This document shows positions 38,577-40,831 of a stretch of 55,927 bases of DNA, piece after piece. The stretch's first letter is position 1, and each line of letters opens with the position of its first letter. The notes under the pieces were generated by a model that saw nothing but the letters and a program-made list of their open reading frames with translations, made no database searches and was not told the DNA's origin. The position numbers were made by a program, and so were the translations under genes. Origin of the DNA: Melioribacteraceae bacterium. GTDB taxonomy: Bacteria; Bacteroidota; Ignavibacteria; Ignavibacteriales; Melioribacteraceae. The stretch is taken from assembly GCA_024103215.1 (NCBI GenBank), contig JAGFIY010000139.1, positions 1-55,927 of the forward strand, read 5' to 3'.

Positions 38577-38598
38577 GAGACTTGATTTATCAAGTCTC
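38577..38598. terminator. Hairpin after valS
   Basis: GAGACTTGA (38577-38585), loop TTTA and TCAAGTCTC (38590-38598) form a perfect 9-bp stem. It is followed by ATTTGCC, so the U-tract is short. It could also end minus-strand transcription from the remnant at 38658. Confidence 0.5.
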
Positions 38599-39063: not shown

Positions 39064-39615
39064 CTATTTTATTCTCACATAAGTTTTAACCAACTCTTCT
39101 ACTAACTTTTCGGTGTATGTTTCGAATCCTTTGTCTTCCATTATTTTAATTAACGGTGCGGGAACAAAAGGTGTGATTAACAGGTAATTTTCATTTTCTT
39201 TTAACTCAAGAATATCTTTTGTTACTTTTGCCGCTGGATGATTGCCGTTTTCTAAATCTTCGCGGGCATCGTATTCCTTAACAATTTGATTTTCCTTGAC
39301 CCAAACCGGTTTTGGTTTAATGCTTTCAAATAAATCCTCCTTCTCGTAAAAATATGGTGGAGACACAGCATGCTGTGTCTCTACCGAAGCACGCAGCTCA
39401 TTAATCATCCTCGACAAGGAAACTCCGCCGACAACCGCTGCTTGTTTTAATGTTGTTACTTTCGCAATCGTTCTTCGCAGAACCGGATTTTTTAATTTCT
39501 TAAATACCGGAGCAATCTCAATAAGTTTTTCTTCAAGGTGCGGAAAATTATTAAGTAAATCACCGACTAAAGTTTTTGGTGTTATATCCAATTTAATATC
39601 TTCCTTAATTGTCAT
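39064..39615 (-). CDS. DUF1858-DUF2249 protein with repeat-derived linker
   Basis: 183 aa from ATG 39615 (AAGGAG upstream, overlapping the previous gene by 11 nt). The N-terminal DUF1858 domain (about 7-72; DITPKTLVGDLLNNFPHLEEKL) is a short helical sensor-like domain. The C-terminal DUF2249-like domain (about 105-183) has DAREDLENG, ENYLLITPFVPAPLIKIMEDKGF. The two are joined by a linker whose codons 78-87 (VETQHAVSP) are encoded by a 30-nt palindrome (39356-39385). Found mainly in metal/NO-related contexts in other bacteria. Co-transcribed with the DUF438 gene. Confidence 0.82.
   Translation of the reverse strand: MTIKEDIKLDITPKTLVGDLLNNFPHLEEKLIEIAPVFKKLKNPVLRRTIAKVTTLKQAAVVGGVSLSRMINELRASVETQHAVSPPYFYEKEDLFESIKPKPVWVKENQIVKEYDAREDLENGNHPAAKVTKDILELKENENYLLITPFVPAPLIKIMEDKGFETYTEKLVEELVKTYVRIK
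39356..39385. repeat. Palindromic repeat in frame inside the DUF1858-DUF2249 gene
   Basis: Perfect inverted repeat GAGACACAGCA/TGCTGTGTCTC centred between 39370 and 39371, extended to GGT...ACC with one G-T mismatch. It contributes ten codons without a stop. The GTAGAGACNC.../...GTCTCTAC form is that of a repeat family I know from several bacterial phyla (established in general terms; not searched here). Confidence 0.8.
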
Positions 39616-40831
39616 ACTGCAAGATTCTCCTTTCGCCTTCCAATTCTCTGAACTCGTCAATGCCCTGTGTTAACTCAACTGTTCCAAGATAATTCCCTTC
39701 TATATCTCGAACTGCGTAATAAGAAATGTGTACGTATTTGCCATGAAAATTTATCCAGAACTTTGCTGCATTTTGTTTGCCGGATTTGAAATCATCTAAA
39801 ATTTGATTAACAATATGAACACTCGATGGAGGATGGCAATATTGTACTTCCCTTCCGAGGATTGCCTTGCTGCGTTGAAATATTCTGTCAATTCCGTGCG
39901 AGAAATAACGTACTTTATCTTCTTTATCTACAAAGGTTAAGTCGAGCGGCAATGAATTGAAAATCCCTTCTAATTCTTCGGGTGAAAGACTTCCTGTTGA
40001 AAGCTTGAATTTCGATTTTTCTTTTTCTATATGGTCATTGTTCATGTCGAATTCTGGATTCCATCTTTGTTCGGGATAGTAAATACAGAAACCTATCTCA
40101 TCACTTTGCCGATCTATTTCATACCATTCGACATCAGTAAAAGTATCAATACACATCGGGAAGAGAATATTTTCTTCTTTAAAAATCATCTCATCTATCG
40201 ATTTCAATGCTGGTTCAAACAATAATTCAATAAATCCGTTTAATGTTTCAAGATCAGCATTTTCTTTTTCAACAAAAGCTGAAAATGCAGATCTAAGCAT
40301 GCCTCTGGTTTCGTCGTGTTTACCCCACATAACCATTGGCGGACCGGTAATATTGTGTTTTTCCAAAAAAGGGAAGATTAAGTTTTCTTTTCTCGAATAA
40401 TGTTTTTCAATGTCCATCAATAAGTTAAACTCTTTATTGATATCATTTAAGATTTCTTTCACTGAATTTTCATTTTTGTTACCAGGATAAAGTTTGCGGA
40501 TATTCTCAATTACTTTTTCAATCTCGCGGTTCTCATTTATCATAACATCAACCGGATGACTTTCGGGAATTGCTTTAGAGAATTTACTCATTAAGTTACC
40601 TTTAAGTGCATCGGAATGAAGATCACAGAACTTTAGCACTTCTTCTTGTTGAACTAATCCATCTCTTATTAATTCTTCTTCTGCTTGAATCACTTCTCCG
40701 TAGGGAATTTCACCAAGAGCTTTTTTTAATTCTTTCTGTGTGTCCTCGACCGATTCTCCTTTATGCATTTTCAAAATCAATTCTTTTAAGTTTTTAACTC
40801 TCTTCTGACTGTTGTTAATAAATTCACTCAT
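39605..40831 (-). CDS. DUF438/hemerythrin/PAS protein
   Basis: 408 aa soluble protein. DUF438 (about 10-80; KNLKELILKMHKGESVEDTQKEL), a hemerythrin-like HHE four-helix domain (about 95-240; EKHYSRKENLIFPFLEKH, WGKHDETRGML and the EENILFPM helix provide His/Glu iron ligands) and a PAS-like domain (about 285-400; LDLTFVDKEDKVRYFSHG). Such proteins are thought to sense oxygen, NO or iron. Its stop overlaps the start of the DUF1858-DUF2249 gene. AAGGAAT ribosome-binding site. Confidence 0.9.
   Translation of the reverse strand: MSEFINNSQKRVKNLKELILKMHKGESVEDTQKELKKALGEIPYGEVIQAEEELIRDGLVQQEEVLKFCDLHSDALKGNLMSKFSKAIPESHPVDVMINENREIEKVIENIRKLYPGNKNENSVKEILNDINKEFNLLMDIEKHYSRKENLIFPFLEKHNITGPPMVMWGKHDETRGMLRSAFSAFVEKENADLETLNGFIELLFEPALKSIDEMIFKEENILFPMCIDTFTDVEWYEIDRQSDEIGFCIYYPEQRWNPEFDMNNDHIEKEKSKFKLSTGSLSPEELEGIFNSLPLDLTFVDKEDKVRYFSHGIDRIFQRSKAILGREVQYCHPPSSVHIVNQILDDFKSGKQNAAKFWINFHGKYVHISYYAVRDIEGNYLGTVELTQGIDEFRELEGERRILQYDN

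Follow-up and report, generated by a model that had tools for sequence, protein, structure and literature searches.

Genes and palindrome at the locus

The window, the whole stretch of DNA analysed here (contig C141, 55,927 nt), belongs to a 3.2-Mb genome in 186 contigs with a completeness of 99.88%. Within it, a short palindrome interrupts the linker of a gene for a DUF1858–DUF2249 protein, and the features of this locus are as follows.

38577–38598, no strand: degenerate member of the palindrome family, AGAGACTTGATTTATCAAGTCT, between genes, 16 nt past the stop codon of valS
39064–39615, minus strand: host gene, 183 aa, DUF1858–linker–DUF2249, ATG start; 39064–39066 is the stop codon
39109–39273, minus strand: DUF2249-like domain, residues ~115–169; E 7e-4, under the Pfam curated cut-off
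39355–39384, minus strand: translated element, codons GTA GAG ACA CAG CAT GCT GTG TCT CCA CCA, V78–P87
39356–39385, no strand: 30-nt palindrome as first noted, the 28-nt element plus one flanking pair
39357–39384, no strand: double-foot REP-like element, 28 nt, GTAGAGACACAGCATGCTGTGTCTCCAC on the coding (minus) strand, one base off a perfect palindrome
39406–39585, minus strand: DUF1858 domain (Pfam), residues 26–85 of the 198-aa open reading frame, 11–70 of the 183-aa protein
39605–40831, minus strand: upstream gene, DUF438–hemerythrin–PAS, the last 11 nt of which are shared with the start of the host gene

The open reading frame of the host gene (39064–39660, minus strand, 198 aa) reads through the palindrome and is stop-free there. 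The ATG at 39615 is probably its start codon, since in both of the nearest orthologues the frame is closed by stops before this point. Aligned with PDB 2fi0, the DUF1858 domain covers residues 15–77 of the 183-aa protein; as this alignment stops at residue 77 and the DUF2249 match begins near residue 115, V78–P87 falls in the linker, bearing out the sequence-only reading, which had placed the palindrome in frame between the two domains. Judged from the intact frame, the DUF1858–DUF2249 protein may still be functional. An AlphaFold model from a three-sequence input has a mean pLDDT of 41, too low to be of use; the tryptic peptide ASVETQHAVSPPYFYEK would report translation of the insert.

The palindrome itself is near-perfect, as first described, with two 15-nt arms (39356–39370 and 39371–39385) that are 93% complementary and abut without a gap. 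Its extent needed correction: the palindrome is real, but the repeat unit of the family to which it belongs is 28 nt (39357–39384), not 30. Its 22-nt core is unique within the window, and no shuffle out of 100 contained it. On the coding strand, the ends of the element read GTAG...CCAC. The element scores 39.9 bits against a covariance model of the family that includes the window copy itself among its 35 sequences.

Homologues without the insert

We compared the locus with an alignment of 26 homologous stretches, the window's included, and with the orthologue SURF_28, giving 26 others to scan. None of the 26 contains a family palindrome at up to five mismatches in the outer arms, two of these stretches being cut by contig ends. 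In place of the window's NELRASVETQHAVSPPYFYEKED, the two nearest orthologues (82% identity) have NELRKAAGMDDPEFEKD and NELRNATGLDDIEAEED and so lack the residues of the element. The orthologue comparison proposed along with the original observation therefore came out in its favour.

The same comparison revises the size of the gain. The sequence-only reading had counted ten added stop-free codons; the stretch is stop-free, but the peptide quoted for it, VETQHAVSP, has nine residues, and the linker is longer than those of the two nearest orthologues by a net 18 nt, or six codons, not ten. A clean insertion of 28 nt or 28+2 nt was rejected, and part of the old linker was therefore replaced or lost. 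The homologues, at best 82% identical, include no exact empty site. Since the insert is only one base from a perfect palindrome, the insertion is probably young.

A widespread family of 28-nt palindromes

The window element is a member of a family with the form GTAGAGAC-N12-GTCTCTAC, 28 nt in all, in which the inner arms differ between copies yet remain complementary. Among 395 genomes sampled from the phylum, 73 contain the exact pattern and only 1 has control matches; by genus, the pattern is present in 42 of 170. The window's genome, whose element carries one mismatch, is outside the 73. When one mismatch was allowed, all 12 chosen relatives had the pattern and the controls gave zero.

The pairing of the inner arms was assessed on 61 copies picked by their outer 8-nt arms only. 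This set comprises all listed copies with at most one mismatch in five genomes chosen for high copy number, and is thus non-random. All six inner pairs form in 46 copies, five in 13 and four in 2, with 30 distinct inner arms among them. The stem accordingly sits directly on the feet and carries compensated changes, as in a double-foot REP. A second alignment of 35 copies is 96.5% paired, columns 1–3 pairing with 26–28 in 34 or 35 of the 35, with the fourth foot position unpaired in 7; its pairing figures are inflated, as its sequences were drawn from a 125-copy set chosen partly for pairing, and the 61-copy figure is the unselected one. The 125-copy set (14 genomes) required inner pairing, dropped copies with identical 12-nt flanks and took its loci in one genome (G042) for their RAYT gene.

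Could the palindrome instead have formed in place, by chance or by a palindrome-making mutation, with no repeat family involved? In favour of such an origin, only two copies found in the window's genome share its core. However, the element agrees with the family of 42 genera in its outer arms, in its length and in the complementarity of its inner arms, every one of the 61 copies picked by outer arms has at least four of six inner pairs, and the exact window core occurs as a perfect palindrome in a relative (G030:C459), inside a sorting domain, where it is read as VETQHAVSLQ. Already contradicted by these observations, an in-place origin is extremely improbable.

The family is also found on plasmids, those of Nostoc, Calothrix, Anabaena, Planktothrix, Halotia, Persicobacter and others. 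Small dispersed repeats (SDR) of cyanobacteria are tiny mobile repeats as well. They are cited in the available part of PMC3116915, and we liken them to the present family, which shares their occurrence in cyanobacteria, by description alone. Family palindromes are also found in viral contigs among the matches listed, several of which (L081, L082, L089, L105 and L117) contain two family palindromes exactly 1857 nt apart; such pairs may represent a single locus common to these contigs or a segment that the palindromes delimit. A search of a phage collection with one family consensus returned no match. Matches in Staphylococcus, 17-nt pieces with an E value of 5, were taken as chance. L324:930–957, L407–L410 and other loci carry a sister family, likewise of 28 nt, whose arms are GTAGGGAC; in G024 and G172 it ranks with the top matches to the covariance model.

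Copies in the genome of the window

A search of the window's genome had been suggested with the first observation, and it uncovered further members of the family. No other place matches the window core within three mismatches. A looser pattern found a copy at C146:1381–1409 with the same ACACAGCA core as the window element, so that two copies in this genome have that core, along with further copies on C36 and C148. The 35-copy covariance model adds two weak places, C172:30433 (E 0.02) and window positions 38577–38598 (E 0.04), bringing the family places that it detects at E ≤ 0.04 to six, including these two. The element is thus repeated in its own genome, as a double-foot REP should be.

The C172 copy reads in frame as VGTNHDLSLQ within a sorting domain, and a decayed copy on C148 (VEDAKFAST) lies in another. 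By open reading frames, the copies on C146, C36 and C148 (C148:15302) and at window position 38577 are intergenic. The last of these, 780 nt from the main element, has an E value of 0.036 for the genome and 6e-4 for the window. Lying behind valS, it is positioned like a terminator hairpin. The six or seven copies in this genome look like relics.

A different role for the element would be that of an RNA hairpin in the coding region, acting on translation pausing or mRNA stability, with the peptide incidental. On the mRNA strand, the window element does form a 9 plus 3 bp hairpin, with a folding energy of −22.1 kcal/mol and a z of −2.84, and the copies on C146, on C148 and at window position 38577 sit just behind genes. 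Yet stable folding is expected of every such palindrome, nothing indicates a selected position within the gene and the homologues manage without the element. We regard an RNA function at this site as very unlikely.

Association with RAYT genes

We looked for a candidate mover with an alignment of six RAYT-like Y1 proteins (A1; invariant motifs NHxH, WQ and YI..NP), which was seeded from palindrome loci and so favours finding proteins of similar kind. It replaced the Pfam family PF01797 (Y1_Tnp), which was rejected as a marker; although PF01797 matches occur in 53 of 58 genomes, a family palindrome lies near only 1 of 25 such loci. A1 has matches in 42 of the same 58 genomes, which include the window's own. 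Three RAYT-like proteins match NCBIfam REP_Tyr_transpos with E values of 2e-14 to 5e-16, below its cut-off.

Several observations tie the family to these genes. First, 7 of the 61 copies in the five copy-rich relatives lie inside RAYT-like matches, where 0.03 are expected, and 5 more lie within 300 nt of one, where 0.05 are expected. One of the seven (G001 C35) is an A1 seed, and leaving it out gives 6 of 60. Second, palindromes both flank and enter the genes. In G013 (C20), a RAYT gene is flanked by palindromes and also contains one in frame; in G049 (C1), a palindrome separates two RAYT-like pieces and another follows at either outer side, with no intact frame seen. Among 30 RAYT loci, 19 loops were readable, 10 with a family palindrome and one with a GTAGGGGC variant, these palindromes lying between the HUH motif and the tyrosine. 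The genes concerned are of the subclass 2.4 type (NH[IFV]H, WQ, YIxNNP). Third, copy number correlates with RAYT matches across the 58 genomes (rho 0.41, p 0.001, without correction for kinship), though 10 of the 16 genomes without a RAYT match have pattern matches and 12 of the 42 genomes with one have none. We know of no direct demonstration of RAYT transposition.

The window's genome itself gave no match in the search with A1. Its single Y1_Tnp gene has the motif YIHNQEEHH, a type assigned to class 1 in the available part of PMC6006769.

Relation to known palindromic repeats

The sequence-only reading had compared the element with palindromic elements inserted into proteins in Rickettsia. 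The comparison holds as an analogy. According to the accessible portion of PMC2229807, Rickettsia palindromic elements (RPE) are translated in frame inside conserved proteins, with no mover named there; the window element is likewise a palindromic repeat in frame in a conserved protein and absent in relatives. By that source, however, RPE are 105–146 bp long, as against 28 nt for the present RAYT-linked family.

A more specific fit is the double-foot REP of RAYT/TnpA_REP subclass 2.4. In the part available to us, Quentin et al. (2018; PMC6006769) describe such REPs as a single hairpin with GT[AG]G at its 5′ end and C[TC]AC at its 3′ end, report in-frame REP copies inside subclass 2.4 transposase genes and find these transposases frequent in Bacteroidetes and Cyanobacteria. 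The window element resembles them in having feet at both ends of one hairpin. Unlike the case described there, the host gene is not a transposase gene and the genome lacks such a transposase. GTAG palindromes linked to RAYT genes, sometimes inside open reading frames, were described by Di Nocera et al. (2013; PMC3733652), who, as far as the available text goes, propose linkers or loops as tolerant sites, note that recB carries REPs at nearly the same position in two Xanthomonas species and stress genes of DNA synthesis and repair in their intragenic list. The tag of those GTAG REPs, as described in that text, is unpaired and at one end, whereas in the window family both ends pair, which places the family outside that definition. 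In-frame REPs, also inside RAYT genes, are therefore already in print, the in-frame palindromes of Rickettsia having been reported earlier than the GTAG REPs, and the window element adds a case.

Origin and retention of the window insert

In our view, the window element is very probably a non-autonomous double-foot REP of the RAYT/TnpA_REP subclass 2.4 kind that landed in the DUF1858–DUF2249 linker and was retained as a stop-free, in-frame insert. Membership of the family, complementary but variable arms, the frame, absence in homologues and the RAYT tie in relatives support this reading directly. A double-foot REP (GTAG...CTAC, 28 nt) would have been mobilised by a Y1 HUH transposase of the RAYT/TnpA_REP subclass 2.4 type, and a copy would have entered the linker, replacing part of it. 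It would have persisted there because it is stop-free and in frame. As the window's genome has no RAYT match, we can only infer the mover: a putative RAYT-type transposase, presumably acting through a single-stranded intermediate. The insertion itself was probably neutral for the DUF1858–DUF2249 protein. As a clear case, with homologues for comparison, the element illustrates how repeat DNA can become (predicted) protein in an ordinary gene.

In-frame copies in sorting domains and other proteins

Of the 61 copies in the five copy-rich relatives, 26 are genic and 35 lie in no confident gene, a call made from a simple codon score and motifs, not from annotation. The initial statement that such repeats usually lie between genes thus fits the 35 of 61 but passes over the other 26. 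All but one of the genic copies (25/26) are read in the V-E-T frame, although the R-D frame is about equally stop-free; the remaining one uses a second open frame. Nineteen of the 61 are in type IX sorting domains, 15 at one loop (loop 1: YPNPFNP..IP[VETGHAPSLQ]..VTLKIYD) and 4 at another (loop 2: FN[VETRHASSLP]SGVYF), all in the V-E-T frame, as in the window. Their share varies by genome, from 10 of 11 copies in G030 to 0 of 13 in G010. Seven of the 61 are in RAYT genes, 6 in the V-E-T frame and 1 in the other open frame; these seven, identified by protein motif, differ from the seven placed by match coordinates, C29:14075 being found by coordinates only and C14:48165 by motif only.

The effect on loop 1 can be read from its spacing. 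In the set regarded as uninserted, which includes a few degenerate copies (L334, L068/L199), 51 of 64 domains have 22 residues here. Across 28 inserted domains, the spacing is 30 residues in 12, 29 in nine and 25 in four, with 27, 31 and 42 once each, so that net gains are mostly 8, 7 or 3 codons, compared with 6 for the window insert; these gains, too, speak against a clean insertion of the unit. A search of 10 genomes with one protein, a GH16–malectin protein of G001 with a Por_Secre_tail domain, gave full-length matches in 8. At loop 1, the homologues of G001 and G031 are 8 codons longer, and that of G089 is 7 codons longer, than the five uninserted ones of G417, G131, G362, G387 and G172, and the three carry different palindromes. 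G417 and G131 belong to the genus of G001, and neither has a loop 1 palindrome; the G131 homologue has a decayed copy at loop 2. Repeated entry into loop 1 would be the simplest reading, with loss as a possible alternative.

Copies in the cyanobacterial plasmids are also found in frame. All four of these are in the V-E-T frame: one in a Nostoc NRPS gene, two in a single Halotia NRPS gene and one in a Planktothrix PKS gene. Eight of the 43 plasmid matches that cover most of the query bear a gene label; most listed copies lie outside labelled genes. Of these eight, in gene tables that are incomplete, four are in frame inside the gene and two merely touch a gene end, H20 and H51 being outside the six that were read.

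These patterns raise the question of whether the encoded loops have been put to use. REPs would then repeatedly provide proteins with new surface loops, in the window a longer linker, which selection on the protein retains. The recurrence of inserts at just two sorting-domain loops across many genes (15 and 4 of the 61) would agree with this, as would the different palindromes at one loop in G001, G031 and G089 next to none in G417 and G131. However, loops and linkers are also sites where neutral inserts survive, and part of the spread seems to come from sorting domains that were duplicated whole, such as the near-identical L359 and L360, which carry the same palindrome. Selection of the family for translatability is likewise unsupported; stops in the V-E-T frame occur in 6 of 52 distinct non-genic copies, near the ~10% expected from composition. 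Selected use of the loops therefore seems unlikely to us. Under the preferred reading, that of a neutral insertion retained where tolerated, a RAYT-type enzyme would insert copies at many places and selection would remove all except the tolerated events; in-frame copies would survive in loops, linkers and numerous sorting domains, with whole-domain duplication adding more.

A broader proposal, which we hold only tentatively and would not bet on, is that REPs are a recurrent source of loops across phyla and that RAYT-driven insertion is directed to a small number of permissive loops, namely those of type IX sorting domains, RAYT proteins, NRPS/PKS linkers and the DUF1858–DUF2249 linker, in one preferred frame (V-E-T...S-L). 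If true, a mobile element would repeatedly remodel secreted and modular proteins. The sorting domains of Ignavibacteria, with many inserts at the same two loops and uninserted homologues in sister species, make the process countable and would permit tests of target choice, frame bias and the fitness cost of RAYT-linked insertions.

The concentration of copies in sorting-domain loops is possibly unreported. We did not find such inserts in the searchable literature, outside which lie most subscription papers and supplements; the available main texts of PMC6006769 and PMC3733652 contain no 'sorting' and no 'sorting domain', respectively, no polyketide and no Ignavibacteri-, and secretion only in one reference title. 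The window's genome has 107 sorting-domain matches. In G030, three sorting domains (L344, L390 and L396) carry a different in-frame insert at loop 1, IPSGVEGLSTLK or similar, possibly another repeat family using the same loop.
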